Shown piece by piece: positions 4,987 to 23,186 of a stretch of 46,737 nt of DNA; positions within the stretch are counted from its first letter, which is position 1; the number at the start of each line of letters is the position of its first letter. The DNA comes from Deltaproteobacteria bacterium (lineage in GTDB: Bacteria; Desulfobacterota; DSM-4660; Desulfatiglandales; HGW-15): the NCBI GenBank assembly GCA_016931115.1, contig JAFGFM010000127.1, positions 1 through 46,737 of the forward strand. The letters are read 5' to 3'. A model generated the notes under the pieces. That model worked only from the letters and a program-made list of their open reading frames with translations, was not told the origin of the DNA and did not search any database. The position numbers were made by a program, and so were the translations under genes.

Positions 4987-5148
4987 ATTATAACTCTTAA
5001 GGCCGATGGCACATGCCTGCCCAGATAGATTTATTTAGGTGATTTACTCTTACCCTGTTTTTAAGATAAACCTTACCAGAACAAGACTATTTTTCTTTCA
5101 CAAAAATGCTTTTGAATATCAAAATATTGCTAATAAAGGCTGACATGA

Positions 5149-6618
5149 TTGCTTTTTTATTTCAGTAAATCTATTATCGCCAGCATGTTACTTATAAGTT
5201 TATTAATAAATAAAATTAAAACTCAATCCGGGGGTATTGCTGTCTCCTTCACCCTGTTTCTTACCATTATTGTCGGCATCCTCACCTTTGTGCTTAATCT
5301 TGGTTACCTCTATGCGCAAAAAAATAAATACCAGAATGCAGTGGAGGCAGCAGCAATGGCAGGGGCCTTAAGCCTCTGTGAGGGTGACAGAAATTATGTG
5401 GAAAGGATTGCAAGAAAGATTGCAGCAGAAAATGGCCTTGCCGGTGAAGAGGGCAACCTATCAATTGTTTTTGGTTTTTATGATGAGATGGACAATTATG
5501 ACGATTTCTCTACATATAAGGACTTTGTCCCTGAAGATAATATGCCTGATGACGAATATATTAATGCTGTTTATGTGTCATATAAAAAAGAGGATGCAGT
5601 CCTGATCAAAATGGAGAAGGAGACTTCATCCGGGGCTGCGGCGGTTGTGTATCTAAAACGGATTGATATAGCCAGCTTTGAACCGGATGGTGAAATTCAG
5701 ATAGGACACAACAGCGCCTGGGATGATGTGGTGTTTTTCAGCAATGGAGACATCAAGTATCCTCAGGGTATCAGCGCTGGAGGAAAATATTACAACAACC
5801 CGGAGTTTAATGACTGCCTGTTTTCAGCAGCAGGAAAAACACTATCCTGCGCGGTTGATCTCGTCTCTTCCGGTCTGTTATCAAAAAAAAGCGTCTTAAT
5901 ACGCTGGGACTCAGGTTCACAGGAATCCGGTGCAAACATCCTGTCTGGCATTGACCCCCTAAAAGTTTACAGAAAAGTAAATGATGAATATCTTGATGAG
6001 TGGCGCAGCAAGGCAGATGTTATTTACACTCCGGCTCAGGCTGGGAGTGATAAGGTATTTTACAAAAGCCAGGGTAATAAATACTACATTGATCCTGCAG
6101 GTGTTAATGGTGTTATCTTTTTCGATGCGGAAGGCTCAGGCCAGGCAAAGGTGTTTATAGGAAGAGAGCAGGATCACGCCCCAAACGGCGAGGCCATAAA
6201 AAATCTTACCTTTGTTGCCAATTGCCCTGTCCAGCTCATTAACAGCCTCGGTACAAGCTACAGCATGCCAGACAGTCTCCTATATGTTGGGGGAGAGAAA
6301 GATGATCAGGCAACATTTATATCAACAGGCGATATAGAGATTTACCCCTCTGCCGGCCAAATGATACGGTTTGATGGTGCGGTTTTTCGTACAGCAGGGG
6401 ATTTTATTCTGATGGACGGGGGTGGGTTTTTAAATCATAAAATAAGGGCTATCGCGGACGGTAGTGTTATCGGAAAAAGCGGACTCCATACATCCTCCTA
6501 TTCAATGTCAGGGAACAACATCGGATTATTCGGGATCAACTGCAACAGCCGTTTCGGCCCACCCTGCCCGCCTAATATACCTCGGCTGGGTACGCTTGAT
6601 CGAACCTCTTTAGAATGA
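5149..6618 (+). CDS. TadG-like protein (Flp pilus-assembly TadG N-terminal domain)
   Basis: 489 residues. The N-terminal part has SGGIAVSFTLF, a hydrophobic helix, and then QNAVEAAAMAGAL. This is the pattern of the TadG/TadE-like N-terminal region, which anchors pseudopilin-like proteins in the inner membrane. The remaining ~430 residues look extracytoplasmic and beta-rich, with no family I recognise. TTG5149 is the better start: AAAGG lies 9 bases before it. ATG5185 (residue 13) is the alternative, and ATG5145 is out of frame and closes after seven codons. No other tad/flp genes are in the window, so this is an orphan. It converges with the DUF1573 gene with 26 bases between. Confidence 0.65.
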   Translation: MLFYFSKSIIASMLLISLLINKIKTQSGGIAVSFTLFLTIIVGILTFVLNLGYLYAQKNKYQNAVEAAAMAGALSLCEGDRNYVERIARKIAAENGLAGEEGNLSIVFGFYDEMDNYDDFSTYKDFVPEDNMPDDEYINAVYVSYKKEDAVLIKMEKETSSGAAAVVYLKRIDIASFEPDGEIQIGHNSAWDDVVFFSNGDIKYPQGISAGGKYYNNPEFNDCLFSAAGKTLSCAVDLVSSGLLSKKSVLIRWDSGSQESGANILSGIDPLKVYRKVNDEYLDEWRSKADVIYTPAQAGSDKVFYKSQGNKYYIDPAGVNGVIFFDAEGSGQAKVFIGREQDHAPNGEAIKNLTFVANCPVQLINSLGTSYSMPDSLLYVGGEKDDQATFISTGDIEIYPSAGQMIRFDGAVFRTAGDFILMDGGGFLNHKIRAIADGSVIGKSGLHTSSYSMSGNNIGLFGINCNSRFGPPCPPNIPRLGTLDRTSLE

Positions 6619-6644
6619 CCTTCAGGGCGGATATTTATTCGCCC

Positions 6645-7655
6645 CTACCTGTATGCAACAGGCACTTCAATTACTTTATATTCCGGCCTGTTTGTCCGGA
6701 TAATAAGGATATCCTTTGCTGAATAATTTTTATCACGCATGCATTCAACCTCTATATTATATGCATGCTCCTTGATAAGGGGCTTCATCTCATATGTACA
6801 CTCAGGATAAGGCATTTCTATTGCAGTGATATTAAGAGGCTTGTCATCCTGTGCTTTGATCAGGATCTCTCCTGTAAACTTCCCTTTGCAGTTTCTGCAG
6901 CGTGATGTTTTTAATTCAAGATTATCAGGATACACACCCACAGCCCCCAGCATATTAACAAAGACCGGCAATGCGATTTTATTACGGCCAGGGTAATTGG
7001 TATTGAGGATTATTCTTCCCCTGAATGATCCCGCCTCTTTGACAACACTTTCCACTGACAAAAGATACTGTTTGTTTTTAATGACCGGTTTTAAGGATAT
7101 TTTTACTCTGTCACCAAGGTCATGCTGCTCTATCGTGACATCAAGGGGCATCTTACCCTCAGTATTAATGACAATCTCCTGCCTCATATCCTGCCCCGGC
7201 CTTCCCTTTAAAAAGATACGATCAGGTTTCAAAGTGAGAAGAGGTCTGATATCGGCTAATACAATTAAGGTGACTGCCGGGCGTTCCGGGTCATTTGAAT
7301 AGATCACGGATTTAAATTTCACCTTTCCGTGTATGTTAATGGTGTCGATTTTAAATTTGATATTTGCCGTCTCCCCTGCCGGTAGCTCCGGTAAATATTC
7401 CACACTGGTGCATTTGCAGCCCGATTTGATCTTTTCTATAACCAGTTTTCCAGCGCCATTATTTTTAATGGGGAAACTGGCTGTCAATGTATCTCCCTCC
7501 TTTACCTTACCCATATCAATATAGGTCTGTTCAATTGCCATTATGGGTCTTAGGGATTGCGCCATTTTCTTTTGGGGCATCTCAGCGCCTGCGGAGCCGC
7601 TTACAAGGAGGGCTGATAAAAATGCAGATAACAGCAGGTAAATATTTCTACTCAT
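6645..7655 (-). CDS. Secreted DUF1573-family protein
   Basis: 336 residues with a clear signal peptide (cleavage near GSAGA, residue ~24). Residues ~40-135 show the DUF1573 pattern: a beta-sandwich start (F/Y-x-D-x-G-x-V), IKNNGxGKLVIEKI, and a cysteine motif GCKCTS. Two more beta-sandwich segments follow, the last with CRNC. DUF1573 domains are Ig-like periplasmic or surface modules of unknown function. The ATG overlaps the end of the upstream gene by 8 bases with an AGG-type site before it, so the two are translationally coupled. No catalytic motif is seen. Confidence 0.75.
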   Translation of the reverse strand: MSRNIYLLLSAFLSALLVSGSAGAEMPQKKMAQSLRPIMAIEQTYIDMGKVKEGDTLTASFPIKNNGAGKLVIEKIKSGCKCTSVEYLPELPAGETANIKFKIDTINIHGKVKFKSVIYSNDPERPAVTLIVLADIRPLLTLKPDRIFLKGRPGQDMRQEIVINTEGKMPLDVTIEQHDLGDRVKISLKPVIKNKQYLLSVESVVKEAGSFRGRIILNTNYPGRNKIALPVFVNMLGAVGVYPDNLELKTSRCRNCKGKFTGEILIKAQDDKPLNITAIEMPYPECTYEMKPLIKEHAYNIEVECMRDKNYSAKDILIIRTNRPEYKVIEVPVAYR

Positions 7656-8469
7656 ATACCTGCCTCATATGGGGTCTGCCTCCTACCCAAAGGGTAACAG
7701 TGACTGGTCCTTCATAGCCTGTAGTTACCCTGTAAAGATCTGCGTTCTGGGCCATAATATCCTTTGATTCACTGGCATATTCAGCCTCTATCCTTATCCA
7801 TATCTCGCCATCCGGTGGCTGAATTTTTCCAAATTCCCCGTTCTCTGGCGCGGGCTCAGGCCCTTTATTTTCTGTATCTTCAGTTGCAGGTTCTGATTCG
7901 GATATATCCCCGGTTTCAGTTTCATGATTGGTTTCAGTTTTATCAGCAGTTTGGTTTTCAGATGCTGGCTCTTCTGTTATGACATTATTGCGCCTCCTCT
8001 GAAAGGCCGCTCCTGAAAATGTACCGGTCAACCTTTCCTGTACCCTTTGTTCAGCCTCCTGTTCAAGCTTCCATACAGGGTTATGGGTCTGGATAGAAAC
8101 CAATGGAAGCTGAGATCTGGCCTCAGTTTCAAACATCCTGTTGTATGTATTCTTAATCTCAGCCTCGGCAAGCAGTTCAGGATCTATTTGTTCTTCAGCC
8201 GCCTCTCCTTCAGAAGTGTTATCAATACTCTCGGGCACCCTTTCAGCGGTTAGCCCTGCCGGATTTCCGGCATTGTTATTTTGGCCTTTGCTATTTGGAA
8301 CAGAGCCACCGGGTGTTAAAGGCATTTCAGCGGTTTTTGAATTTGCCTGTTCCTGGCTGTCAGGCGCAGGGGTTTCATCATTAAAAACCCCTTTTTTGAC
8401 GAGCACGATCCCTATAACAGCAATAACGAAACACACACAGACAACAGCGTAAATATATTTTTTATTCAT
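7648..8469 (-). CDS. Unknown protein: N-terminal membrane anchor, low-complexity linker, small C-terminal domain
   Basis: 273 residues that I do not recognise as a family. It has an N-terminal membrane helix (about 6-26), then a long Pro/Glu/Asn/Thr-rich region (30-215) likely to span the periplasm or be disordered. A folded C-terminal domain of ~50 residues begins at GEIWIRIEAEYAS and ends at RQVYE. The anchor-linker-domain layout resembles TonB or other periplasm-spanning adaptors, but no TonB C-terminal motif is present. The stop overlaps the DUF1573 start by 8 bases, suggesting a functional pair. A 23-bp palindrome sits 21-43 bases upstream of the start. Confidence 0.5.
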   Translation of the reverse strand: MNKKYIYAVVCVCFVIAVIGIVLVKKGVFNDETPAPDSQEQANSKTAEMPLTPGGSVPNSKGQNNNAGNPAGLTAERVPESIDNTSEGEAAEEQIDPELLAEAEIKNTYNRMFETEARSQLPLVSIQTHNPVWKLEQEAEQRVQERLTGTFSGAAFQRRRNNVITEEPASENQTADKTETNHETETGDISESEPATEDTENKGPEPAPENGEFGKIQPPDGEIWIRIEAEYASESKDIMAQNADLYRVTTGYEGPVTVTLWVGGRPHMRQVYE

Positions 8470-8592: not shown

Positions 8593-10722
8593 TTATTCAT
8601 CCTCCAGCAAAAGCATGAGAATAGGTGTAATGGAGGGCCTCTTTGTGCCCAAGACAATAGTCCCTGTAGCAATTACCTCTTCCATATCCTCTGCCCTGTT
8701 GATAAGACTGAAATTATATCGCCCATCCTCCTGTATATCCCAGTCATAGCTCCACGAACCTGTTACATTTGATGCAACGATCTCAAATGGGTTATTGCTT
8801 CCTATCTTAAGCAATATTTGGCTCCCCCATTCCTTGCTTCCGCTCAAGGTCACAGGTGATGTCTCAACACGCGTTGTTGTCCCACCATAGGTATTGAGTG
8901 TAGCCACAGGAAGCCTGTCAAACAGGTCATAACGTAAAAATTCCACCAGGGTATCATTACCGCTTGCATCTGTAAGTTTGCAGGATCTTATCCGGGCAGG
9001 GGTGTTGTGATCCTCTAGCACCCACCAATTGTGGTTTGCATCCTGAACAGCAGCACCTGAAAGCTCTACCCAGTTATCTTCAATATGGTTCTTTGCCCAG
9101 ACCCGCACCTCATCATCAATATTATCCAGATTATCCACAGGCCATTTAAGTTCAATATAGGCTGTGCCCTGCTCAGGTTCCGCAAGGTTGACCTGAAAGG
9201 TTTCGATTTCTGTCCAATCCCCTGTCAGCATCCATTCCACAGGGTTTCCTGTACAGCCAGTCTGTTCGTTTCCCGCAGCGTCAACAGGTATTGCAACTGC
9301 CTGGTGGGTTACTCCATCCTGTGCGTTGGGGCTTATAAAATTTCCCTGGCCGTAATTTTTTACCTGACCATTTTTTGCCCCATCCAGACAAAACTTAAAT
9401 CTGTTGGAGTCAGAACCTTCCGGAGATTCTGCGCGAATACCGACGTTATGTTTGCCCGAACCTGCCGAATAGTTACTTACTTCTGTCAATATACGTTCGT
9501 AAACAGGCACTTGTGGAGGCACAGTGTCATAGATAATTGTGCCTGTTGCAAAAACCTCTTCCACTTCCCCGGCCCTGTTGATAAGGCTAAAATCATATGT
9601 CCCGTCTGTTGTGATATTCCAGTCATAACTCCAGTCCCCATCCACACTTGGATCTACTATTTCAAATGGGGCACCACTTCCTACCTTCAGTAAAATCTGG
9701 CTTCCCCGTGCCTTGTCTCCATTAAGTAAAACCGGAGAGTTGTTCTTGTAGGTTGTTGTACCGCCATAAGCGCCAAGCGTTGCATCCAAAAGATCAACAG
9801 TAAGCTTAAACATAGCAGACGCAAACTTGTTGACATCGTTTGCATCAGTCACAGTAATGGTGATATTAGCCTCACCAGATCCGCTGTTGACTGGGATAGC
9901 AGTAACATACAGGGTTACCGGCACGCCAGCAGTGACTGTCATGGGGCCTGTTAGTGGCACTGTGCCCTGTTCATCTATGTAGTAAATTATATTTGCAGTG
10001 GGAACGAGAGCAGTGTTCGAAGAAAATCCTGTGACATTGACATTTCCGGTTACTGTTGGCGTTATAGTGAAGGCTATAGGATCGGTAGGGGTGTCGATGT
10101 TAGTGGTTTGGTCTGCAATTTCACTAAGGAAATAATACAATGTCTTAAGGACTGATGTGTTGTTTTCTTTGGTGATGATCAGATCTCCATCCTCTGCATT
10201 GTATACCGTACCATTGATGTCCACCAATTCGGTCAGGTTGGTTTCAGGAGAAAAATAAAAATTGACCATATCAGTGAATGTACCGGTTTGCAATGCCGTA
10301 AAGGTAAATGTTGCAACATGAGTTTCACCAGTAAGTACAGGATAAAATTCAGCCAGATGGTCCAAATCAGTCTCGCTTGAAATATCATACCATCTGCCCC
10401 TTTCGATATCAGGAATGGACGGTATAGTAGATTCACCCCACAATATGTATTTAGAAAATCCTGATCCTCTAATGTATTCTTCAAGATCAGGAAAATCGGC
10501 TAGTTCAAGCAATGAAGTATCCCATTCTATTGCAAAGCTTATGTTATCTAAATAATCTGTGGTATCGCCTTCGAATTCTACCGAGATAGTATAATTTTCT
10601 CCAGATGTCAGCACCCCGTCAACATCAGACATGACAAACTGACAAGCCATAGCGGTACCAGAAAATAAAAGTAACAAAATAATGGTATACTGCAAGCTTT
10701 TAGATAAAAAATAATGGCTCAA
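8593..10722 (-). CDS. Large secreted cohesin-like/Ig-like protein without sorting tail
   Basis: 709 residues. The start is TTG at 10722: GGAGG lies about 9 bases upstream and no ATG lies before the signal peptide. The signal peptide ends near TAMA. Residues ~27-190 are a cohesin-like beta domain closely related to the 10836-11495 product (shared TDYLDxxSFAIxWDTSLLE and DISSETDLDH). A cadherin-like stretch follows (ITVTDANDVN). Then one ~95-residue module occurs twice, at ~335-405 and ~620-690, each with YGGTTT, GSQILLKxGS and YxFSLINRA. Unlike its neighbour it lacks a PEP-CTERM tail, so it is probably released or held by a partner. A terminator precedes it at 10768-10810, so it probably has its own promoter. 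Function unknown. Confidence 0.65.
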   Translation of the reverse strand: MSHYFLSKSLQYTIILLLLFSGTAMACQFVMSDVDGVLTSGENYTISVEFEGDTTDYLDNISFAIEWDTSLLELADFPDLEEYIRGSGFSKYILWGESTIPSIPDIERGRWYDISSETDLDHLAEFYPVLTGETHVATFTFTALQTGTFTDMVNFYFSPETNLTELVDINGTVYNAEDGDLIITKENNTSVLKTLYYFLSEIADQTTNIDTPTDPIAFTITPTVTGNVNVTGFSSNTALVPTANIIYYIDEQGTVPLTGPMTVTAGVPVTLYVTAIPVNSGSGEANITITVTDANDVNKFASAMFKLTVDLLDATLGAYGGTTTYKNNSPVLLNGDKARGSQILLKVGSGAPFEIVDPSVDGDWSYDWNITTDGTYDFSLINRAGEVEEVFATGTIIYDTVPPQVPVYERILTEVSNYSAGSGKHNVGIRAESPEGSDSNRFKFCLDGAKNGQVKNYGQGNFISPNAQDGVTHQAVAIPVDAAGNEQTGCTGNPVEWMLTGDWTEIETFQVNLAEPEQGTAYIELKWPVDNLDNIDDEVRVWAKNHIEDNWVELSGAAVQDANHNWWVLEDHNTPARIRSCKLTDASGNDTLVEFLRYDLFDRLPVATLNTYGGTTTRVETSPVTLSGSKEWGSQILLKIGSNNPFEIVASNVTGSWSYDWDIQEDGRYNFSLINRAEDMEEVIATGTIVLGTKRPSITPILMLLLEDE

Positions 10723-10835: not shown

Positions 10836-11495
10836 CTATTTATCACGCCTTCTTATACTAACTAATCCAAGCACCCCACTACCTAATAACCAAACCGCAG
10901 CAGGAATTGGTACTGGTGCCATCACTGAATTTGATCCTTCCTTAAAAATAGCCAGTTCTCCGTATTGTGCGTTGTAACTATCACCGTTGATATCTACAAG
11001 TTCGGTAAGATTATTTTGTGGTGTATAATAAAAACCTGCAAGATTTTCAAAATACCCATCCTGTAACGCTTCAAATGTAAAGGTGGCCATTAAGGTTTCG
11101 TTTGTATTTACAGGGAAAAATTGGTGCATATGGTCCAGATCAGTTTCACTGGACACATCATATAACCTGCCAGACTCTATATCATCAAAAACTGGTGGGA
11201 TACTAGAGTCACCCCATAATGTGTATTTTGATAAACCTCTCCCTCTTGTATAATCTGCCAGCTCATAATCAGTGGCTTCCAATAATGATGTATCCCACTG
11301 AATAGCAAAACTAAGCAAGTCCAGATAATCAGTCTTCTCACCTTCAAAATATACATTAATTGTGTATTCCTCTCCTTCTTCCAGAGTGCCATCTACATTA
11401 GTCATGGTTATTTGCCAAGCAAATGAAGGTAGTGAAAAGGTGAAAGTAAACAACAAAGATGTTAAAAATATAAAAACAAGCTTTTTTATTTTCAT
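10836..11495 (-). CDS. PEP-CTERM protein with cohesin-like domain
   Basis: 219 residues from the chosen start. ATG11495 (MKIKK) is preceded by AGAGGAGATAGA, a strong ribosome site; the upstream ATG at 11519 only adds eight residues covering that site. The signal peptide ends at SFA. A cohesin-like beta domain (about 25-175) contains SFAIQWDTSLLE and DVSSETDLDH. The C-terminus has VPIPAAVWLLG, a hydrophobic helix, and SIRRRDK: a full PEP-CTERM signal for exosortase-dependent sorting. It is paralogous to the N-terminal third of the 709-residue neighbour. The matching exosortase is elsewhere. Ligand unknown. Confidence 0.8.
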   Translation of the reverse strand: MKIKKLVFIFLTSLLFTFTFSLPSFAWQITMTNVDGTLEEGEEYTINVYFEGEKTDYLDLLSFAIQWDTSLLEATDYELADYTRGRGLSKYTLWGDSSIPPVFDDIESGRLYDVSSETDLDHMHQFFPVNTNETLMATFTFEALQDGYFENLAGFYYTPQNNLTELVDINGDSYNAQYGELAIFKEGSNSVMAPVPIPAAVWLLGSGVLGLVSIRRRDK

Positions 11496-11541
11496 TCTAT
11501 CTCCTCTTTCTTTATTCATTAGTCATTTCAATAGATGGGAC

Positions 11542-13065
11542 CTAATACCAAGGGCCCTGAGTCCCATATTTCTGCCTAAATGCAGAATTATCAGTTTTAT
11601 CAACATCCCCGTCAGCATCAAAATCACTCTGGGGTCCTGAAGTTCCGTATTGCGATCGGAACGTATTGAAATCGTTACGATCCACATCACCATCATTGTC
11701 ATAATCAGCATCAGTAACGTCACCATACCCATCCCCATCACTATCCTGCTGACTCGGGTTAGAAGTAAGATATGCATTATCTGCGGCATTGGGTATGCCG
11801 TCACCATCCAGATCATGGGTGGCATCAAGTGCGCTGCCCGGATAATAGATAGTAAGCCTTGGTGTGACACCTGGCATCCAGTAATCATAAGCAGAACCAG
11901 GGCTCCCGGCGCATCCCCCTGATTCATCACCGGATGGATTCCACATAACAGCAAGCCCGCGTCCCCACCTGTCTGCAAGTGCTCCGGTGGCAGAGTCATC
12001 CTGGCATGCATCAGGGGCAAAATACTTATATTCACTGTTATCAACCTTATTTCCATCGGTCGCCGGTGTAGTGCGTATTCCATCAGCAATCTGATCCACT
12101 ATCCCGGCCTTGATAAGGGCTGCATAGCCGTTTTCATCCGGCCCGCCAACCCCAAAGGCATCGCCTCCGCCAATATGCAGGTTGCCTTCGGCATCCTGGC
12201 CAATGTGGGCGCCGCTCAGTAGGTTCTGAGCAACAACGCGGGAGTTGGTATCATAATTAAGTGAATTCGGAGTTGCAGGGTCCCAGTCTGCTGCATCCCA
12301 TACCTTTATTTCGCCTGTACGATTTGGATATGTGTAATAACCGATGCCAACCAGCAGATCGCCATTCGCGGTTACCTCCACGTCAGCGCTTGCGCCCGGA
12401 TGCGGTGTTAAAAGCACCCCGGTGTGGTCCTCAGGATCAGCAGCCTGGGTATCTACTGAACCGACACCTGATTCAAAAACACAATCAGGATCATTGTGGT
12501 AAGGATAGGTGCATTCCGGTCCGGGCCATGCCCCGCCATCTATAACAAAGTAGCGGTTATCAGCCCAGTCGCCTTCATAGTAGTTCACATTTTCAAATTT
12601 TTTTACTGATGCATGTGTATCAAGCACCGGCGGACTGGCAGCGCTGAGCACGCTGGTCGGGATAATAAGCAGCGGTGCGCCATATCCTATTCCAAGCGCT
12701 ATCTTGCTTCCATCCGGTGAAACATGAATAAAACTCGGATCCATTGTGCCGGTTACAGTTCCCACCACATCAAACTGGCTTGAGCCATAGGTACGTTGTA
12801 AATAAATTTTATCATTATTAGCAGCGATAATCCGGCCTTTAGCCGCAAACTTGCCATCGAGCATCCCTGTTGTACTCTCAGGGAAATAATCCGCTGCCAC
12901 AAACCAGCCCCCCTCAACCGTGGGCAGGTCAATATCTGCCTCGTAACCGATCTCAGGGTCCTTGTAGTCAGCAAAATCATCTGCCAGTATGGGTATTGGT
13001 ATGGCAGTAAGGCTTAACAAGACCGCCGCCCCTGAAAGGAGTTTAATTATTTTGTTGTTTTTCAT
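11542..13065 (-). CDS. Secreted propeller-like protein with C-terminal dockerin/EF-hand repeats
   Basis: 507 residues with a signal peptide ending near residue 28 (ILA-DD). The central ~400 residues look like a beta-propeller, with blade-type segments such as FIHVSPDGSKIALG, DVEVTANGDLLVGIG and GQDAEGNLHIGGGD. The last ~95 residues carry calcium-loop motifs: DLDGDGIPN, DSDGDGYGD, then two dockerin-like pairs NDGDVDRND and DADGDVDKTD. There is no PEP-CTERM tail; a dockerin-like end could attach it to a cohesin-like neighbour such as 10836-11495, which is inference. GAGGT precedes the ATG. It lies at the distal end of the run that starts with the DUF4465 gene. Confidence 0.65.
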   Translation of the reverse strand: MKNNKIIKLLSGAAVLLSLTAIPIPILADDFADYKDPEIGYEADIDLPTVEGGWFVAADYFPESTTGMLDGKFAAKGRIIAANNDKIYLQRTYGSSQFDVVGTVTGTMDPSFIHVSPDGSKIALGIGYGAPLLIIPTSVLSAASPPVLDTHASVKKFENVNYYEGDWADNRYFVIDGGAWPGPECTYPYHNDPDCVFESGVGSVDTQAADPEDHTGVLLTPHPGASADVEVTANGDLLVGIGYYTYPNRTGEIKVWDAADWDPATPNSLNYDTNSRVVAQNLLSGAHIGQDAEGNLHIGGGDAFGVGGPDENGYAALIKAGIVDQIADGIRTTPATDGNKVDNSEYKYFAPDACQDDSATGALADRWGRGLAVMWNPSGDESGGCAGSPGSAYDYWMPGVTPRLTIYYPGSALDATHDLDGDGIPNAADNAYLTSNPSQQDSDGDGYGDVTDADYDNDGDVDRNDFNTFRSQYGTSGPQSDFDADGDVDKTDNSAFRQKYGTQGPWY

Positions 13066-13102
13066 ATTAATACCTCGTTAAAAGTTAAACGCTATGAGTA
13101 AA

Positions 13103-13194
13103 CAGGAATAAAGAGGGCTGATTTTAGAAAATTGATCAAAATATCATCTTAAATTTTCTCCTTTCCTGTAATCTGTTGCTCCTCTTTATTCCTG
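13103..13194. repeat. 14-bp perfect inverted repeat between two surface-protein genes
   Basis: CAGGAATAAAGAGG (13103-13116) is repeated inverted at 13181-13194 with 64 bases between. It lies between the stop of the 13218-14171 gene and the start at 13065. No U-run follows on either strand, so it is not a standard terminator. It may be an mRNA stability or processing stem. Confidence 0.6.
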
Positions 13195-13217
13195 GGCCCG
13201 CCTTCATGGTAAAACGG

Positions 13218-14171
13218 CTAAAGGTTATTACGCCTCCTAATCCCTATAAGACACATTACCCCGGTTCCTAAAAGCCATATAGCTCCCGGTATTGGCACAG
13301 GGGCTACATCGGAAAAGGCGTCTATCTCACCGCCAGAATAGCCGCTGATGCCTTCCACCTTGATGTACTGAATCCAGTCCAGTTCAACCCCATAAAGAAG
13401 ATAAAGGTCATCCAGATCAAAGCCTGTTCCGCCTCCTGACCCCTGGTATGCCTCGATAGCATCAGCAGCAGAAACACCTGTCTGACCGAGCAACGCGCCA
13501 AAAACATCAGGATCGACCGGTTTGGTGAAATCCATCAAATTGGTTGTCCAGCCGTTTCCGGTTGCATCATATTGCGCCTGATCCCACTCATAGGCATGGG
13601 TAGGATATGCATTATCGCCATATGGTCCATTTGAATAGGCGTACCAGGTCCATTGCGATTGATCCTGACCTTCATATGCAGGTCCCTGGCTGACTGATAC
13701 GACTACGTTTTCAAAAAAACCCGCGCCATTAAATGAACTTCCTCCTGAAAGCATATATGTACTCATATTGGAGGCATCACTAACACTGCCACTACCAGTA
13801 TAAAATGCATTTCCAAAGACCAAAAAATCCAGGCCAAAGGGGTTGTTGGGGTCATTCATGACCTGGTGGTCAAAACCAGCCACGATATATTGCCCATTGT
13901 TAAGGGTTGTAATGAGCTTTGAACCATCCAGGCCGACGTTATAGGCCGGTTCCACCAGCTTTACATGGGCTGTTGCGGCGCTTCCCCATGTATTCTTGAA
14001 ATCTGTTGCTGGGGCACCGATTACAGCATTAGGGTCATTATAGAGGCTGCTGCCTGTTAATGTACTGGAATATGAAATAAGGTCTGTAGCATAAGGCGAC
14101 CCGAAAACCGTGGCAGACAAAGCTACAACCGCCATTCCAAATAAAAATGTTACTAATAAAAACTTTTTCAT
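13218..14171 (-). CDS. PEP-CTERM cell-surface protein (paralogue of 14955-16028)
   Basis: 317 residues. The signal peptide ends near VFG and AGGAG precedes the ATG. The body contains ISYSSTLTG, NDPNAVIGAP, a glycine-rich region with FGLDFLVFGNAF, and late FDLDDLYLLYG with YIKVEGISG. The same order of motifs (VVSYVP, GFDNAIYNGEGADF, FDLDDLL, YVRIVDIPG) occurs in 14955-16028, so the two are diverged paralogues, probably beta-sandwich surface domains. The C-terminus VPIPGAIWLLG, helix, IRRRNNL is a PEP-CTERM signal. Spacing to the upstream gene is 32 bases, consistent with one operon. I recall this type being called 'cell surface protein' in cobalamin-regulated loci, but cannot confirm it here. 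Confidence 0.75.
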   Translation of the reverse strand: MKKFLLVTFLFGMAVVALSATVFGSPYATDLISYSSTLTGSSLYNDPNAVIGAPATDFKNTWGSAATAHVKLVEPAYNVGLDGSKLITTLNNGQYIVAGFDHQVMNDPNNPFGLDFLVFGNAFYTGSGSVSDASNMSTYMLSGGSSFNGAGFFENVVVSVSQGPAYEGQDQSQWTWYAYSNGPYGDNAYPTHAYEWDQAQYDATGNGWTTNLMDFTKPVDPDVFGALLGQTGVSAADAIEAYQGSGGGTGFDLDDLYLLYGVELDWIQYIKVEGISGYSGGEIDAFSDVAPVPIPGAIWLLGTGVMCLIGIRRRNNL

Positions 14172-14203
14172 AAAAAATTACTCCTTCTTTTCCTGTCAAT
14201 AAA

Positions 14204-14848
14204 TTATTTTGAACGTTTACGTAATCCAATCAATCCAATAATCCCGCTGCCTAAAAGCCATAGAGCACCGGGGATGGGGACAGGGGCAGCAAAAGGAACG
14301 TCCAGGAAATAGGCGTTGGGGTCCCCATTGAACCATGTAATCGCATTTATGCCTTCAAGCTGACCATCTGCAAGCAACTCCTCATTATAACCGGCTCGAT
14401 TGGCGTACCAGTCCCCCAATGTTATCCAATCATCACTCATCGCACCCCACAGCGCAAAGGGATCGTTAGTACTACCGAGATTCCAGCTTCCCTCTTCGTC
14501 CGCGTGCGTATGGTTATCAACACCGTCGTTGTAGACGATGTCATAGATGAACGCCCCACCATAGCCGGAGGACAAGGTGAATACGCCCGCATCGTTTAAT
14601 GCATCGAGCATATCGGATTCGTAAGCTGTACCGTTCCAGCGGAAGCCAAATGCGTGCGATTCGGTTTGGTAGGGGCCTGAATAGATGTTCCAGTCCACGA
14701 CCAGAATTGTCTCGTTTTCTCCGCTGCCAGTCCAGGCATCCACCTCAATCCAGGCGCTGTTGCCACTTGCACCCGTGAAGTAATAGGGCGAGGCCTGAAC
14801 CATTGTGCCGATCAATAAAAAACAAATCACTAAAAATACTTTTTTCAT
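14204..14848 (-). CDS. PEP-CTERM protein of unknown family
   Basis: 214 residues. The signal peptide ends at VQA and AGGAG precedes the ATG. The mature part is a compact, Trp- and Gly-rich, probably beta domain with AWIEVDAWTGSGE, ETILVVDWN, SHAFGFRWNG and an HTHADEEGSW stretch whose His and acidic residues could bind a metal or ligand. The tail VPIPGALWLLG, helix, LRKRSK is a PEP-CTERM signal. I do not recognise the family. It lies between two paralogous PEP-CTERM proteins, 32 bases before one and about 106 bases after the other, where a palindromic element intervenes. Confidence 0.75.
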   Translation of the reverse strand: MKKVFLVICFLLIGTMVQASPYYFTGASGNSAWIEVDAWTGSGENETILVVDWNIYSGPYQTESHAFGFRWNGTAYESDMLDALNDAGVFTLSSGYGGAFIYDIVYNDGVDNHTHADEEGSWNLGSTNDPFALWGAMSDDWITLGDWYANRAGYNEELLADGQLEGINAITWFNGDPNAYFLDVPFAAPVPIPGALWLLGSGIIGLIGLRKRSK

Positions 14849-14878
14849 TTCTAATCTCCTGATAATTCTTTAATACGT

Positions 14879-14967
14879 GGATCGGATCGTAGGGGCGCAG
14901 TGCCTGCGCCTGCAATCCGACATTATTCCAAACATCAATTAGAGGAAAGTCGGATTAATAACCCGAC
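14879..14967. repeat. Dispersed GC-rich palindromic element, copy B, plus adjacent palindrome
   Basis: 14879-14930 repeats the element at 8543-8588 (TCGTAGGGGCGCAGTGCCTG, then GCAATCCGACATTATTCC). A second palindrome GTCGG...CCGAC (14949-14967) overlaps the stop codon of the 14955-16028 gene. Together they fill the space within the PEP-CTERM operon and could cause partial termination or protect mRNA ends. Confidence 0.65.
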
Positions 14968-16028
14968 CTACCTGACTTTCTTCGACGAATACCCAGAAGA
15001 CCTATTATCCCTGAACCTAAAAGCCAGATAGCTCCAGGGATTGGTACGGCATTGATAACGCCAAGCGCCTCAAAGTCCAGACCACCTGAACCCCATGTAA
15101 CCCATGCATCATAAATTGGATTACCATCAGCATCTGTCAATGTACCATTACCCGGGATATCAACGATTCTGACATAGTTAATTTCATTAAGGTCGACAGC
15201 ACCTGATAAAACCAGCGGATCATTCAGAAGATCATCAAGGTCAAAGGGAGTTCCCCAACTTGCGCTATAGGCATTTGCATGCTTTCCCACCAGGTTGTAT
15301 ATATTGCTGACATCCTGGGTAAGATAATTTGTGCTGACCATGGTTCCTGTTCCATTAAGATCTATCCGATTGTCTACCATTCCATTCGTGGTGGCATTTG
15401 GGTAATTCAGATAGTCGCTGGGAAAGCGTGCAAAGTCAGTCCCATTTGTTGACACATCCACAAAACCGAGTTCTGCAAACATCTGACCTGCAACACTGCC
15501 TGCACCTGTGCTGTAATTTGAAACAAAGCCGTTTTCAAAGGCCGCAAAATCGGCACCTTCACCATTGTATATTGCATTGTCAAAACCAAGGGTGAGTATG
15601 CCGGGGCCGGTGATTCCGCCAGGCGGGTTAATGCCCAGGTTGTTCGTCCAACTGTTGATCTCGGCCATATTCATATCGCCAAGGGTGACGATGTTCATAT
15701 TGTTGCCGGTTACAGGACCTAAAGCGAGCGCCGGATTTGCGAACTGAGTACCTATACCGTTCTGGCCATAGGCGCCAGTATTATCAGAAGGCACATAGCT
15801 CACAACTTCTGTTGCCCATCCAACAAAAATCGGGTTAACATAGTTGCCGTTAGTATCTGTAGCTGCTACTCCCTCGCCAGCAGGGCCTAAAAACCCTGCA
15901 ATCCCTGCATCAATAAAACCTACTTCATCAGCGCCTCCTTTGCCTGGTGAATATGGCCCTGCAAATGAACTGCTGTATGTTAACAAGGTAAAAACTAAAA
16001 AAACACTAAACAAAAATCTCTTTTTCAT
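14955..16028 (-). CDS. PEP-CTERM cell-surface protein (paralogue of 13218-14171)
   Basis: 357 residues from ATG16028 (MKKRFLF), with GGAG upstream; a TTG two codons earlier is less likely. The signal peptide ends near SFA. The body holds ATEVVSYVPS, a glycine/asparagine-rich segment, ILTLGFDNAIYNGEGADF followed by AAFENGF, FAELGFVDVSTNG, FDLDDLLN and YVRIVDIPGNG. This reads as a regular beta-sandwich with an F/Y-V-x-V-S-x-N-G strand typical of carbohydrate- or ligand-binding surface proteins. The tail VPIPGAIWLLG, helix, IRRRKSGRSGY is a PEP-CTERM signal. It starts 18 bases after the DUF4465 gene, certainly the same transcript, so it is under the riboswitch leader at 16.9-17.9 kb. Confidence 0.78.
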   Translation of the reverse strand: MKKRFLFSVFLVFTLLTYSSSFAGPYSPGKGGADEVGFIDAGIAGFLGPAGEGVAATDTNGNYVNPIFVGWATEVVSYVPSDNTGAYGQNGIGTQFANPALALGPVTGNNMNIVTLGDMNMAEINSWTNNLGINPPGGITGPGILTLGFDNAIYNGEGADFAAFENGFVSNYSTGAGSVAGQMFAELGFVDVSTNGTDFARFPSDYLNYPNATTNGMVDNRIDLNGTGTMVSTNYLTQDVSNIYNLVGKHANAYSASWGTPFDLDDLLNDPLVLSGAVDLNEINYVRIVDIPGNGTLTDADGNPIYDAWVTWGSGGLDFEALGVINAVPIPGAIWLLGSGIIGLLGIRRRKSGRSGY

Positions 16029-16046
16029 AATCAATAATTCTCCTTT

Positions 16047-16901
16047 TTAAACTTTCGATCTTTTTCTCCCAATCCCGATAAACCCCAGAAGACCGGAACC
16101 CAAAAGCAGGAGAGACGGGGGTATTGGAACCGGATTTACATCCAGATTATCCATTACAAAATAGGCTGGGGTGTTTATGCCCCAGGTTCCTGTATCTGAT
16201 GAGGTGAGGTCGAACTCAAGGCCGTATACCAGTCCAAGACTGGTCAAATCTACCCATGTCCAGTCAGTGATGATATAGTCACCCTCTGAATTTTCAGAGC
16301 GGTAATCCGCCAGGTAAAAATCAACAGAATTGCCGGTGCGGGCATATTCACTATCAAGACCATAAACAGTCAGCTTGAACCAGTCAGGGTCAGTACCGGT
16401 AGCGCCGCCAAATTTTTTTGCATAGGAATCACCTTCCATCATGGAATGATATGCATATGCATTGTTGGTGAAATAGGCGCCATTTACAACCTGGGCATAT
16501 TCACCAGACACAACCCCGTTGTAAGTCTGAGGATACCATCCCATCCAGGAACCGACACAGCTTACCCCATAGTTAGCTGAACCATTTACACCACCGCCTG
16601 CACCATTATTGCTGTATGCAACAAACTGTCCGTTAACCCCTGAAAGTGAGGTATTGGTCTGATTGGAATAGGCAAAATCCACCCAGAAATCATACTCATC
16701 CTCTTTAAAATTGGTAAAAGCTACGTCTCCGCTGGTAAATGAACCATGCGTACCAAAGTCATCTTCTCCTGATGTATCAACACCATTCCAGTATGACTCT
16801 GATGCAAGAGTCAAATCATCAAAAGTTGACACAGAAGCGCTTGCTGACGAGGCTATAGCCAATAACCCCGTTAAAATTAATAATAAAAACATTTTTTTCA
16901 T
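16047..16901 (-). CDS. PEP-CTERM protein with DUF4465 domain, headed by the multi-riboswitch leader
   Basis: 284 residues. AAAGGAGAGATAA precedes the ATG and the signal peptide ends near ASA. Residues ~24-255 match DUF4465 as I know it: an FDDL start with ESYWNGVDTSG, FTSGDVAFTN, an S-(V/G)-W-x-G-(F/W) core, FYLADYRSEN, and WTWVDLTSLG with YGLEFDLTSSDTG. The tail VPIPPSLLLLG, helix, IGRKRSKV is a PEP-CTERM signal. DUF4465 genes recur, to my knowledge, in cobalamin-riboswitch loci of Bacteroidetes, where several surface lipoproteins bind B12; here the protein is PEP-CTERM-sorted instead. The 5' leader holds two cobalamin riboswitches and a GEMM riboswitch with terminator. B12 binding is inference from context. 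Confidence 0.8.
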   Translation of the reverse strand: MKKMFLLLILTGLLAIASSASASVSTFDDLTLASESYWNGVDTSGEDDFGTHGSFTSGDVAFTNFKEDEYDFWVDFAYSNQTNTSLSGVNGQFVAYSNNGAGGGVNGSANYGVSCVGSWMGWYPQTYNGVVSGEYAQVVNGAYFTNNAYAYHSMMEGDSYAKKFGGATGTDPDWFKLTVYGLDSEYARTGNSVDFYLADYRSENSEGDYIITDWTWVDLTSLGLVYGLEFDLTSSDTGTWGINTPAYFVMDNLDVNPVPIPPSLLLLGSGLLGFIGIGRKRSKV

Positions 16902-16929: not shown

Positions 16930-16964
16930 AAAAAAGCCGGATCACCTATCAAAGGCAACCCGGC
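16930..16964 (-). terminator. Terminator overlapping the 3' strand of the GEMM aptamer
   Basis: On the minus strand GCCGGGUUGCCU pairs with AGGUGAUCCGGC and is followed by six U. Its 5' arm is the 3' closing strand of the GEMM aptamer, so aptamer folding and termination are mutually exclusive. Ligand binding is therefore predicted to switch expression on. It ends 29 bases before the DUF4465 start. Confidence 0.8.
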
Positions 16965-17082
16965 TATCCAATCTGTTTTTGAGCCTTGAGCTTTGAGCTT
17001 TGAGCTTTGAGCTTTCAGCCTTGAGCTTCTTCTTTGGATCCGCGGCTTTCCGGCCCCCGGTTACCCGGGGTGTGGCTTTTTC
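16950..17082 (-). promoter_or_regulatory. GEMM / c-di-GMP-I class riboswitch with expanded P3 loop
   Basis: Minus-strand order: AAGCC-ACACC, a stem CCCCGG-GUAA-CCGGGG capped by a GNRA tetraloop, GCCGGAAAGCCGCGGAUCC, a long loop, then GGAUAGCCGGGUUGCC. This matches the GEMM-I layout (AAACC, GNRA-capped P2, GCAAAGCC, P3, AGCCGGGUUACC). P3 (AUCC/GGAU) encloses about 60 extra bases, mostly AGCUCAA heptamers. The base aligned to Vc2 G20 appears to be A here, the change found in cGAMP-sensing GEMM-Ib; that alignment is by hand. It lies downstream of two cobalamin aptamers and upstream of a terminator. Confidence 0.75.
16976..17032. repeat. TTGAGCT heptamer array inside riboswitch loop
   Basis: About seven units of a 7-base repeat (TTGAGCT with variants TTGAGCC and TTCAGCC). 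The same heptamer occurs at 23404-23434. The array lies entirely in the P3 loop of the GEMM aptamer. The unit length is not that of a CRISPR repeat and there are no spacers. Confidence 0.85.
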
Positions 17083-17091
17083 TTTTTAATA

Positions 17092-17185
17092 GACTCTAAA
17101 GAGGGGCGGCAAGGAGGGTAATATCCGTTAAAAATGAAGCGTCAGAGTAAATAATTCTTCATTCGCACCCCACCCCTCGATAGAG
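17092..17185 (-). promoter_or_regulatory. Expression-platform hairpin after cobalamin riboswitch 1
   Basis: On the minus strand CUCUAUCGAGGGGUGG pairs over about 60 bases with CCGCCCCUCUUUAGAG. Nested inside is UGAAG...CUUCAUUUUU, a small hairpin with a U-run. The same nested structure follows riboswitch 2 at 17611-17703, so it is conserved and probably functional as a terminator/antiterminator switch. Confidence 0.6.
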
Positions 17186-17201
17186 TCCCACAGCTTCATA
17201 T

Positions 17202-17364
17202 GGCAGTTGAGGTCTCCTGGCTCTCCCGGCCCTGGCCGCCTTCCCATAATGTCCGTGTCATTACAGTGGCATGTTGATCAGGGCTATGATTCCTTTTACT
17301 GGAATCAGGATTACAGTTGCGGGGCAGCAGCGGCTTTTCACCGCTTTCCCTTCCTCTGCCTGTG
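17202..17364 (-). promoter_or_regulatory. Cobalamin (B12) riboswitch 1
   Basis: The minus strand reads AGGCAGAGGAAGGGAAAGCG, GGUGAAAAGCCGCUGCUGCC, CCGCAACUGUAAUCC, AUGCCACUGUAAUG, GGGAAGGC, and closes with the B12 box GAGAGCCAGGAGACCU. All conserved cobalamin-aptamer boxes are present in order. It is the second of two aptamers in series and is followed by a GEMM riboswitch and the DUF4465 gene. Confidence 0.93.
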
Positions 17365-17610
17365 CTGTTCGTTGAAAATATAATTAATGAAAATCCTGAA
17401 TAATTACTTGGTATATTTTGCTGTTCTTTTCAATAAGATTGCGAATCAGCGGAAATATATTTAAGGGAAACAGGTTGTAGAATTAATTAAAAAAGTTTAT
17501 TGCAAGATTCTTTTCATGGATATTTCTTTTCAGGAGATGCCAATGTAATACCGATAGAGCTTTTGCTTTTCAGCTCAGGTTATACAAAATGTATATTTAA
17601 TTTTTTAAAA
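17365..17610. other. Spacer between the two riboswitch modules; possible remnant start
   Basis: There is no gene here; the plus-strand frame 17500-17715 is a shadow of the regulatory RNA. On the minus strand an ATG opens MKRILQ followed by a stop (about 17516-17496). It resembles the beginning of a signal peptide like those of the adjacent genes, so it may be a relic of a lost gene between the duplicated modules, or chance. Confidence 0.35.
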
Positions 17611-17703
17611 GACTCTATAAAGGGGTGGAAGGGGGAGGCTTCTCAGGCAAAAATGAAGGAACCAGGCAAAAATACTTCATTCGCACCCCACCCCTCGATA
17701 GAG
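17611..17703 (-). promoter_or_regulatory. Expression-platform hairpin after cobalamin riboswitch 2
   Basis: The minus strand has CUCUAUCGAGGGGUGG...CCACCCCUUUAUAGAG followed by UCUUUU, with an inner AUGAAG...CUUCAUUUUU. It is homologous to 17092-17185 with compensating differences in the outer stem, and here the outer hairpin is closer to a standard terminator. Confidence 0.65.
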
Positions 17704-17719
17704 CTTTGCAATTAAATTC

Positions 17720-17887
17720 GGCAGATAAGGTCTCCTGGCTCTCCCGATTCCGGTCACCTTCCCATAACCCATGTCTAGTTACAGTGGTATATTGATCGGA
17801 ACACTGATTTCATATATTGAAATCAGGATCACAGTTGCGGGGCAGCAGCGGATTTACACCGCTTTCCCTCCATCTACCTATGCTTAC
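17720..17887 (-). promoter_or_regulatory. Cobalamin (B12) riboswitch 2
   Basis: The minus strand shows GGGAAAGCGGUGUAAAUCCG, CCCCGCAACUGUGAUCC, UACCACUGUAACU, GGGAAGGUGACC, and GAGAGCCAGGAGACCUUAUC. It is a complete cobalamin aptamer, the first of the series leading to the DUF4465 operon. It begins about 83 bases after the CRP/AraC gene stops, so it can be reached from its own promoter or by read-through. Confidence 0.92.
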
Positions 17888-17970
17888 ATCAGCAGATAAT
17901 AAAAGAGCTTCAGGAATTTTGCTTGTTTTATTTTGCTTTTTAATAAGATAAATTTGCTTTAATAAAAAGA

Positions 17971-18801
17971 TTAACCCGATTGTTGTTTTATTTTTACCTG
18001 GGATACATGCTGAAAGGACTTTTTATAATGTGAAGGTGTAACACCTTCCAGTTTCAGGAAAACCCTGCTGAAATATGAGAGGTCATTGAAGCCAACAGCA
18101 AAGGCAGCCTCGGTAACATTCATGTCATTATTTTCCATAAGATATTTTGCTCTTTGGACACGTTTGACATTAATATAATCCTTTAACGAGGCCCCTGTTT
18201 TGGTTTTGAAGATTCTTGAAAAATGGTACCTGCTCATTGCGTTTGCCTGGGCTATCTCATCTAGGCTAAGAGGATTCATGAAGTTTTTTTCAATATATAT
18301 GAGCGCCTTTTTTATAGTACGGGGGAAAAAATCAGATTCATCCTTATTATCTATATTTTTTTTTGAGAAAGATAATGAGTTATTTACCTTTTCAAAGGCC
18401 CTCATGAAACTGGCAATAGCTGATTTATAAAAATATTCCTTTACATGCGGATAGCTATTGAGAATACCAATAAAATCTTTTCTGGAAAGCCGATAGCCTT
18501 GAACATGTGTCCTGCTGTACATGTTCACAATGGATAATTTTCCGACCATCAATGAACCGCTTCCAAAAAAATCTCCTTTAGTTAAACAACCGCACTCAAT
18601 CAAATCATTGTTGGCCGCCATCAATACAGTCAGTTTACCGGAGCTTATAATGCCAACTTCCTTTACAAGATCACCTTCTTTAATGACCTGCTGCCCCTCT
18701 TTGTAATTAAAGGGGAAAAACCTCTGGCAAATGGCATCCATTTCCTTCTCGGATATATTTTTAAAAACAGGTATATCGGCCAGTAATTCTCTAACATCCA
18801 T
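17971..18801 (-). CDS. CRP-like (cNMP-fold) / AraC-type transcriptional regulator
   Basis: 276 residues from ATG18801 (MDVRELL); the 14 residues before it in the open frame are the riboswitch terminator hairpin read as protein. Residues ~5-115 are a cyclic-nucleotide-binding-fold domain (IPVFKNISEKEMDAI, EGDLVKEVGIISSGKL, KGDFFGSGSL). The usual phosphate-cassette Glu and Arg are not visible, so it may not bind cAMP. Residues ~165-265 are an AraC DNA-binding domain with two helix-turn-helices (LSLDEIAQANAMSRYHFSRI and VTEAAFAVGFNDLSYFSRVF). It is expressed behind cobalamin riboswitch 3 and ends next to riboswitch 2, so it likely regulates the neighbouring B12-linked genes. Confidence 0.85.
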   Translation of the reverse strand: MDVRELLADIPVFKNISEKEMDAICQRFFPFNYKEGQQVIKEGDLVKEVGIISSGKLTVLMAANNDLIECGCLTKGDFFGSGSLMVGKLSIVNMYSRTHVQGYRLSRKDFIGILNSYPHVKEYFYKSAIASFMRAFEKVNNSLSFSKKNIDNKDESDFFPRTIKKALIYIEKNFMNPLSLDEIAQANAMSRYHFSRIFKTKTGASLKDYINVKRVQRAKYLMENNDMNVTEAAFAVGFNDLSYFSRVFLKLEGVTPSHYKKSFQHVSQVKIKQQSG

Positions 18802-18836
18802 AAAAAACCCCTTTATGCCGCAGGCACAAGGGGTGT
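18802..18836 (-). terminator. Hairpin of riboswitch 3 that also covers the ribosome site of the regulator gene
   Basis: On the minus strand ACCCCUUGUGCC pairs with GGCAUAAAGGGGU and is followed by six U, directly touching ATG18801. The AAGGGG of the 3' arm is the best ribosome-binding sequence for that ATG, so the hairpin could stop transcription, hide the ribosome site, or both. Confidence 0.75.
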
Positions 18837-18893
18837 TATCCATATACCAACCTGGAAAACCTGTACCTCGCAGGCATCCAAACTAACTATCAT

Positions 18894-19050
18894 GGCAGGT
18901 CTCCTGGCTTGTGAATCATCCTAATAGCCATCTCCTTCCCATCCCGTAATAGGCGGAACAGTGGATATTTTGGCTTTCGTCCTCACTTACAGTGGCGGGT
19001 CCGCAACGGCTTTACACCGTTTTCCCTATAAAGCCCATGTAGGGCACCAG
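18894..19050 (-). promoter_or_regulatory. Cobalamin (B12) riboswitch 3, upstream of the CRP/AraC regulator
   Basis: The minus strand has GGGAAAACGGUGUAAAGCCG, GACCCGCCACUGUAAGUG, UAUCCACUGUUCCGCC, GGGAAGGAGAUGG, and AAGCCAGGAGACCUGCC. These are the cobalamin aptamer boxes in order. It is not part of the 17.1-17.9 kb duplication; peripheral stems differ clearly. It controls the regulator through the hairpin at 18802-18836. Confidence 0.9.
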
Positions 19051-19319
19051 AATAGTTTTTAGAATTCTCTTCTTGTTTAATCTTCTTTAAAAAAAACCGC
19101 AATATATTAATAATTAATATTACAATAGACGAACTATAGCTTGCGTTAAATTGCTATTCTTTTTAACTTTCTTGCGCATGTAAAGGTATTAACTAAATGG
19201 TATAAATTTTGATTGCAGCTAATAAACTAATTTTATTATGATCGGACATGCTGTGATTTATTGACTATATGAGTAGGTTAAATTATACTCTTAATAAAGC
19301 AACTTAAGAAAGGATTTTA
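19051..19319. other. AT-rich intergenic region upstream of riboswitch 3
   Basis: About 270 bases between the response regulator stop and riboswitch 3. I see no gene. A promoter for the riboswitch 3 transcript should lie here on the minus strand (very AT-rich around 19090-19130), but I cannot assign -35 and -10 boxes with confidence. Confidence 0.4.
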
Positions 19320-22490: not shown

Positions 22491-23186
22491 TTATCCCTTG
22501 GATGAAACCCTGAGCTTGATAGCCTTTGGCATATCAAATGGCGGGGGGTCATCTGCCTTTATATTTTTTACTGCTAAACTTATAGCCTTATCCATATTCT
22601 GATTACCTGAAGAGCCCACAATCTGGAAGGTTACAATTTCTCCGGCATCACCGATAACAATTCGTACAGTTGCATCATGGTCTCCTTCAGGGATACCGCC
22701 GTTCTTCTCAAGCTCTTTTTGAAGCCTCTCCTGTATCAGCCCCTGAAGCATCTGTGTGTACCATGAATATTTTTTTAAAAGGCTCTCATTACCAAAACCA
22801 CCTCCGATAAGAGACTTCCCCCCCTTTTTTGATACAAGACCAAAACCGTCAGAACCAGCAACTCCATCAGCATCAACACCTAAATCGCTCCCGGCCTCCT
22901 GATCTGAACCATCATCCGGCATCTCTTCATGTGTCTCTTCAATCGCCTGCTCAATAACCTCTTCCTTTTCCTTCAGCTCAGGTTCAGGGGGTATCTCTTC
23001 AACCTTGGGTGGCGGAGGAGGATTTAACAGGGTCACCATCTGCACCTGTCTCTTCATTTTGGCTGCATCTTCAGATACGAGTGCCTTTACGATGAAAAAA
23101 CAGGCAGTCATAAGCATCAGGGAAACAACAATGGAAAATATTATTATTTTTTTCTGCGTAGAATTCTTTTTTTTGCTTTTTTCCAT
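22491..23186 (-). CDS. tonB: TonB-family energy transducer
   Basis: 231 residues. It has an N-terminal membrane helix (about 13-35), a Pro-rich PPPPPKVEEIPPEPE and acidic linker, then a Gly-rich segment. The C-terminal TonB domain (about 135-231) contains YTQMLQGLIQERLQKELEK, ATVRIVIGDAGEIVTFQIVG, DKAISLAVKN and MPKAIKLRV. TonB proteins pass proton-motive energy from ExbBD to outer-membrane receptors. It is followed by the porin gene 43 bases downstream and preceded by ExbB/ExbD genes across a repeat-rich 262-base gap. Confidence 0.9.
   Translation of the reverse strand: MEKSKKKNSTQKKIIIFSIVVSLMLMTACFFIVKALVSEDAAKMKRQVQMVTLLNPPPPPKVEEIPPEPELKEKEEVIEQAIEETHEEMPDDGSDQEAGSDLGVDADGVAGSDGFGLVSKKGGKSLIGGGFGNESLLKKYSWYTQMLQGLIQERLQKELEKNGGIPEGDHDATVRIVIGDAGEIVTFQIVGSSGNQNMDKAISLAVKNIKADDPPPFDMPKAIKLRVSSKG

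Follow-up and report, generated by a model that had tools for sequence, protein, structure and literature searches.

We have analyzed positions 11542-16901 of a contig of 46,737 bases (C172 of genome G000, 5.2 Mb in all); this whole contig is called the window below. All genes of the stretch are on the minus strand, behind a leader with cobalamin and cyclic di-GMP (c-di-GMP) riboswitches. It is probable that they belong to an operon for the capture of vitamin B12 (corrinoids) at the cell surface, in which predicted B12-binding proteins would be held by exosortase anchoring and made under the predicted control of both ligands. A first-pass annotation of the sequence had listed here a DUF4465 protein, two paralogues, a His/Trp-rich protein and a dockerin protein downstream of cobalamin riboswitches. 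All five proteins are present and the riboswitches are real (scores in Table 1); the c-di-GMP riboswitch in the operon leader was missing from that annotation. Its B12 theme stands insofar as DUF4465 is a B12-binding family, the paralogues are BtuH relatives and every scanned locus with a readable leader has a cobalamin riboswitch; the part that invoked BtuG is not supported.

Families, sorting tails and conservation

The protein at 16047-16901 was correctly assigned to DUF4465 by the first-pass annotation: it scores 169 bits against the hidden Markov model (HMM) of PF14717, for which the cut-off is 25. This is an established B12-binding family, eight distant members of which have been reported to bind the vitamin; among their contacts are the HI loop, GTPAYF, whose tyrosine is present in 97%, and the tyrosine of the DE-loop helix (PMC13398666). 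The window protein keeps both elements, as GINTPAYF in the HI loop and TNNAYAYHSM in the DE loop, and the tyrosines are invariant in our alignment (A2); these contact residues were assigned by motif from the same paper, not by superposition. The nearest solved relative by sequence is PDB 9hmu (E 1.8e-21). No cysteine for a lipoprotein anchor is present within the first 30 residues, and the protein ends instead in a VPIP tail. Such an anchor is a trait of Bacteroides-type BtuJ, not a defining feature of PF14717. The family is rare in the phylum, occurring in 5 of 297 genomes.

Alignment A1 shows the homology of the two paralogues, at 14955-16034 and 13218-14171; no Pfam model matches their family. 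The second of them scores E 1.2e-77 against our family model, but is itself one of the six rows of that model. A profile of 54 members (A8) had a single match in the PDB, remote and partial, to residues 432-501 of 8blw_B (E 2.3e-5). An AlphaFold model was built from the 54-row alignment (pLDDT 81, pTM 0.83; the six-row alignment gave pLDDT 49), and its top two PDB matches were 7biz_A (Z 11.5 over 166 residues), the B12-binding lipoprotein BtuH2 with B12, and 8blw_B (Z 11.1). Foldseek returned one match below 1e-3, again 8blw_B (E 2.6e-4). The latter structure is BtuG1 of Bacteroides thetaiotaomicron (BT1490), which has a BtuH domain at its C-terminus (PMC8941943). The structural comparison with BtuG and BtuH that had been recommended was run for this family, then, and its best matches are BtuH2 and BtuG1. 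By profile and model, the paralogues are remote relatives of BtuH and putative B12 binders; in BtuH2 itself the vitamin is contacted by Tyr510, Trp511, Trp577 and His476. Separately, 35 of the 54 members of A8 weakly match the NCBIfam LIC_13355 family lipoprotein (best E 3.2e-6), and this Leptospira family may also be BtuH-like.

Five proteins at 10836-16901 carry the PEP-CTERM layout of a PEP-like motif, a hydrophobic stretch and a basic end. The four VPIP-type tails noted earlier all lie within 11542-16901; a fifth is found just beyond, on 10836-11519, and all follow the pattern VPIP...GSG/GTG...RR. The proteins at 10836, 14204 and 14955 are otherwise unrelated, but their tails share 64-76% identity over about 25 residues. 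Only the tail of 10836-11519 scores above an HMM cut-off (VPLPA-CTERM, 30.8 bits against 25.35). The same contig encodes an XrtH-type exosortase (454-969) with the active-site Cys, Arg and His; together with the VPIP tails, this agrees with the earlier suggestion that exosortase sorting replaces lipid anchors. Elsewhere in the window, a c-di-GMP-I-GGC riboswitch (41981-42058) overlaps the called start of the open reading frame (ORF) 41174-42112, a PEP-CTERM protein. The real start is probably further in, and the ORF seems, from its sequence, to encode a further sorted surface protein under c-di-GMP control.

The comparison covered the 80 DUF4465 loci nearest to that of the window, which belong to Planctomycetota, Desulfobacterota, Betaproteobacteria, Bacteroidota and others; features were counted by a script using simple tail rules. 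A BtuH-type gene is present at 55 of the 80 loci (in the same open frame at 13 of them), the DUF4465 protein has a PEP-CTERM-like tail at 31, and a BtuB-type receptor is present at 23. By a quick pattern search, cobalamin riboswitches were detected at 42 of the 80. This is an undercount, because full Rfam scans of 19 of these loci found one in every readable leader tested (18/18), the nineteenth locus (L056) being cut off at the leader; at loci without an Rfam scan the quick search may also miss c-di-GMP riboswitches. Conservation with cobalamin riboswitches in other genomes, on which the first-pass proposal had been staked beforehand, thus held at all 18 fully scanned loci with a readable leader. 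Anchors differ within the same families and include PEP-CTERM tails, Cys-containing GGCFI-type tails, Bacteroidota C-terminal sorting domains and dockerin-like ends (judged by eye). Nine Planctomycetota loci (L031, L036-L041, L057 and L070) have DUF4465 and a BtuH-type domain in one frame with a dockerin-like end.

The riboswitch leader

The 5' arm of the intrinsic terminator at 16935-16965 overlaps the 3' strand of the c-di-GMP aptamer, and the same layout is found in L016, L018 and L027. From this overlap c-di-GMP is predicted to turn the operon on. With the cobalamin aptamers ahead of it, the leader reads as a gate of the type "no B12 AND c-di-GMP", the ligand responses being predicted from sequence. 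Long stable hairpins follow cobalamin aptamers 2 and 3 (17595-17712 and 17085-17200; z -3.2 and -4.1); they resemble each other and, partly, those of L016 and L024. The terminator of the cobalamin switch is canonical in L018 and L144. Cobalamin riboswitch 1 has a terminator-like hairpin 3' of its aptamer, ahead of the likely start codon, at 18801, of the regulator gene that follows (called 17971-18843), and the real start of that gene is probably there. A cNMP-binding/AraC-type regulator behind its own cobalamin riboswitch lies upstream of the operon in several genomes, with homologues in the corresponding position in L016, L024 and, partly, L133.

Cobalamin and c-di-GMP riboswitches share one leader in six genomes (the window, L016, L018, L024, L027 and L144), and in all six it precedes the same kind of operon. 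The order is reversed in L027, and L144 has three gated leaders. These genomes contain 21 c-di-GMP-I riboswitches in total, and the sole one of G280 is in the gate leader. By our own arithmetic from the riboswitch counts, about 0.02 same-strand cobalamin/c-di-GMP neighbors within 450 bases are expected by chance over the six genomes, against eight observed; the genomes were picked for having the gate, so this figure is a guide and not a test. Five of the Desulfobacterota-type DUF4465 loci examined are gated, all with VPxP tails; L133 has VPxP tails without a c-di-GMP riboswitch, and the loci with Cys or other tails also lack one.

Adenosylcobalamin/c-di-GMP-I tandems were described in 2022 as NOT A AND B gates, with a count of 2 (PMC9481103). 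The same work reported three clusters in Desulfobacca acetoxidans, one with a c-AMP-GMP variant, showed c-di-GMP binding by in-line probing and suggested a link to conductive pili. The gate was previously known from this species only, without a demonstrated function; five further genomes are added here. L144 is almost certainly D. acetoxidans, since it matches the seven riboswitches in 7 kb. Its third leader precedes orthologs of the window proteins at 14204 (50% identical), 13218 (62%) and 11542 (61%), so that B12 capture would explain the published case as well.

Uptake genes and other proteins of the region

No BtuB, BtuF or BtuCD gene is present on the window contig. In this the first-pass annotation was right, but such genes are encoded on another contig of this genome and, in relatives, next to the operon. 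It had advised a search for BtuB under the same riboswitch class; on contig C143 of the same genome, cobalamin riboswitches precede a divergent pair of TonB-dependent receptors, accompanied by BtuF- and BtuC-type genes and next to cobalamin synthesis genes. A BtuB-type receptor lies beside the operon relatives in L015, L016, L133, L134 and L135, in some with BtuF/BtuC, and members of the DUF4465/BtuH-type families lie near BtuF-, BtuC- and BtuB-type genes in L015, L134 and L026. The genome encodes CbiD, CbiG, CobB/CbiA, CbiB, CobT and CobQ; by its gene content the host is probably able to make cobalamin.

The His/Trp-rich protein (14204-14848) has no Pfam or PDB relative except by way of its tail. 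For 11542-13065 a "propeller-like", that is BtuG, reading had been proposed. This was dropped, since no match to DUF5074 (PF16819) was obtained at E up to 10 and the PDB profile search returned TSP3, calmodulin and dockerin matches only, with no BtuG among them. The Dockerin_1 model matches the L144 ortholog of this protein (24.3 against a cut-off of 22.9), is under the cut-off in the L018 relative and has no match in the window protein itself. Full-length relatives occur in 3 of 395 genomes, and a protein of the 10836 type is present in the same three, adjoining every time. It is a natural guess that the 11542 protein docks on its anchored 10836 neighbor, which would then have a hypothetical cohesin role. 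Pfam and PDB searches detected no cohesin homology in 10836-11519, and a cohesin fold was discarded as a candidate after the profile search yielded only chance-level doublecortin rows. The operon probably extends beyond 11542, to 10836 or 8593. Elsewhere in the window, a secreted protein at 3229-4986 shares the TSP3-dockerin-like C-terminus of 11542 (33% over 127 residues).

The coordinates of these features are collected in Table 1. Within the TonB, ExbD and ExbB genes, ExbB (23853-25634) is fused to DUF2341 and a laminin-G-like domain.

Table 1. Features of the candidate operon, its leader and related genes in the window
Feature	Position	Strand	Evidence or remark
Cobalamin riboswitch 1	18877-19066	-	RF00174 115.6 bits; leader of cNMP/AraC-type regulator
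Regulator, cNMP-binding and AraC helix-turn-helix domains	17971-18843	-	PF00027, PF12833
Cobalamin riboswitch 2	17710-17905	-	RF00174 70.8 bits; operon leader
Cobalamin riboswitch 3	17210-17351	-	RF00174 70.4 bits; operon leader
c-di-GMP-I riboswitch aptamer	16951-17086	-	RF01051 55.8 bits, gathering cut-off 35
Intrinsic terminator	16935-16965	-	13 pairs and T-tract; -21.8 kcal/mol, z -5.06
DUF4465 (BtuJ-type) protein, VPIP sorting tail	16047-16901	-	PF14717 E 1.6e-49
BtuH-type protein 1, VPIP sorting tail	14955-16034	-	Profile match 8blw_B; model matches 7biz, 8blw
His/Trp-rich protein, VPIP sorting tail	14204-14848	-	50% identical ortholog in L144
BtuH-type protein 2, VPIP sorting tail	13218-14171	-	Aligned with family; 62% identical ortholog in L144
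Secreted protein: N-terminal domain, TSP3 stretch, dockerin-like C-terminus; without sorting tail	11542-13065	-	TSP_3
Candidate partner of dockerin protein, VPIP sorting tail	10836-11519	-	VPLPA-CTERM 30.8 bits
Protein with N-terminal domain of 10836-11519 (56%), without sorting tail	8593-10722	-	
Exosortase, XrtH type	454-969	+	PF09721 44.5 bits; TIGR04177 95.2 bits, cut-off 86
TonB, ExbD, ExbB genes	22491-25634	-	TonB_2 and MotA_ExbB; ExbD by similarity

Interpretation and comparison with known systems

We propose that the DUF4465 protein and the two BtuH-type proteins would bind corrinoids outside the cell, by analogy with DUF4465 (PMC13398666) and BtuH proteins, relatives for which B12 binding is established. 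The exosortase would process the VPIP tails and so fix the proteins to the cell envelope or exopolysaccharide, replacing the lipid anchor of Bacteroides, and the captured corrinoid would be taken up by the TonB-dependent receptor and BtuF/BtuCD encoded elsewhere in the genome. Cobalamin riboswitches with bound B12 would halt transcription, and c-di-GMP would allow it to pass the terminator, so that expression is predicted at low B12 and high c-di-GMP, i.e. in sessile or biofilm cells. A narrower version, which we advance tentatively and hold to be possible but not the likelier outcome, is a biofilm-restricted B12 trap: exosortase-fixed binders, some held through a dockerin scaffold and all made only by sessile cells short of B12, would sit in or near the exopolysaccharide, and the matrix would store the vitamin for use by the cell or its community.

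Several observations weigh against surface capture of B12. Most of the PEP-CTERM HMM scores fall slightly under the cut-off, and neither of the hairpins that follow the second and third cobalamin aptamers has a good U-tract. In L144 the leaders and the BtuH-type genes are present, but a DUF4465 gene was not found. The host has its own cobalamin synthesis genes, and capture is therefore not obligatory. In the structural comparison the unrelated PAPP-A reached Z 10.1, just 1.4 Z units under the best BtuH match, and further matches were discoidin/CBM32-like folds at Z about 8, so that the BtuH-type fold is a common one; the claim of BtuH kinship is made because sequence profile and structure agree.

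B12 might merely be the regulatory signal, with the operon encoding PEP-CTERM proteins of the biofilm matrix and no B12 feeding into the cell. L144 has the same leader also before PEP-CTERM proteins that show no sign of B12 binding (2470-3660 and 4684-5307), the window contig has no B12 receptor gene, and in the same genome a cobalamin riboswitch with a terminator-like hairpin (L021 15169-15352, contig C117) lies before an XrtA-type exopolysaccharide export cluster. This link between cobalamin riboswitch and polysaccharide did not, however, recur in the upstream regions of 11 related genes; a conserved control of polysaccharide export by cobalamin was rejected, as it holds in this genome only (1 of 12 loci), and in L187 the cobalamin riboswitch points away from the polysaccharide export gene. 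Moreover, three of the five genes of the stretch belong or are related to B12-binding families, and the relatives that accompany a BtuB-type receptor, some with BtuF/BtuC as well, tell against a purely regulatory part for B12. We regard this explanation as unlikely.

The distance of the window proteins from the tested family members could mean that the cargo is mainly another corrinoid-like or tetrapyrrole ligand (cobinamide, other cobamides or haem) and not cobalamin, but the conserved leader class is the cobalamin riboswitch, and the eight members reported to bind cobalamin are themselves distant (PMC13398666), which makes this quite improbable. Least credible of all is a service of the gate to conductive pili, the role suggested in D. 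acetoxidans (PMC9481103). Both L144 and L018 do have Tad (Flp) pilus genes close to the operon, with counterparts in the genome studied here (L021), but the genes directly behind the gate in all six genomes encode sorted surface proteins, most of them from B12-binding families, and not pili. The window genes at 5149-8469 have counterparts in L144 near the Tad (Flp) pilus region.

If surface capture of B12 is correct, B12 capture by the BtuJ/BtuH pair is not a speciality of Bacteroidota lipoproteins, the pair being found with exosortase tails in Desulfobacterota, Planctomycetota and Betaproteobacteria, and a BtuH-type family without a Pfam model acquires a likely function. It would also give a testable reason for the riboswitch logic gate reported in 2022, by which vitamin scavenging would be linked to sessile life, and a concrete prediction on the contribution of c-di-GMP to micronutrient uptake in biofilms. 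Our literature search found no paper that joins PEP-CTERM/exosortase with BtuH or with B12 capture.

Among known systems, the cobamide loci of B. thetaiotaomicron (BtuB, BtuG, BtuH, BtuJ, BtuK; PMC8941943, PMC12751083, PMC10404256) likewise have DUF4465 (BtuJ) and BtuH-type proteins together under cobalamin riboswitches. The window differs from them in that PEP-CTERM/exosortase tails replace the lipoprotein anchors, a c-di-GMP riboswitch is present in the leader, the receptor and ATP-binding cassette (ABC) transporter are on another contig, a dockerin protein is added and no BtuG is detectable. D5EK51 of Coraliomargarita akajimensis (PDB 9hmu, PMC13398666) is the closest solved structure and has the same HI and DE loop motifs, whereas more than 70% of the DUF4465 family described in that work are lipoproteins, the rest have periplasmic signals, and PEP-CTERM anchoring is unmentioned. 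As in other PEP-CTERM/exosortase systems, the C-terminal tails are tripartite, an XrtH gene is on the contig and polysaccharide export genes are elsewhere; the cargo here is a predicted B12-binding set, handled by a presumed exosortase. Cellulosomal cohesin-dockerin pairs resemble the 11542 protein, with its dockerin-like C-terminus, and its adjacent, co-occurring anchored neighbor, but no cohesin homology was detected in the latter and the pairing is hypothetical. The closest parallel to the leader, the tandems of D. acetoxidans, shares the arrangement in which c-di-GMP-I, with a terminator of its own, comes after a cobalamin aptamer; the window leader has two cobalamin aptamers in series, and the function proposed here is B12 capture, as against the conductive pili suggested for D. 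acetoxidans.

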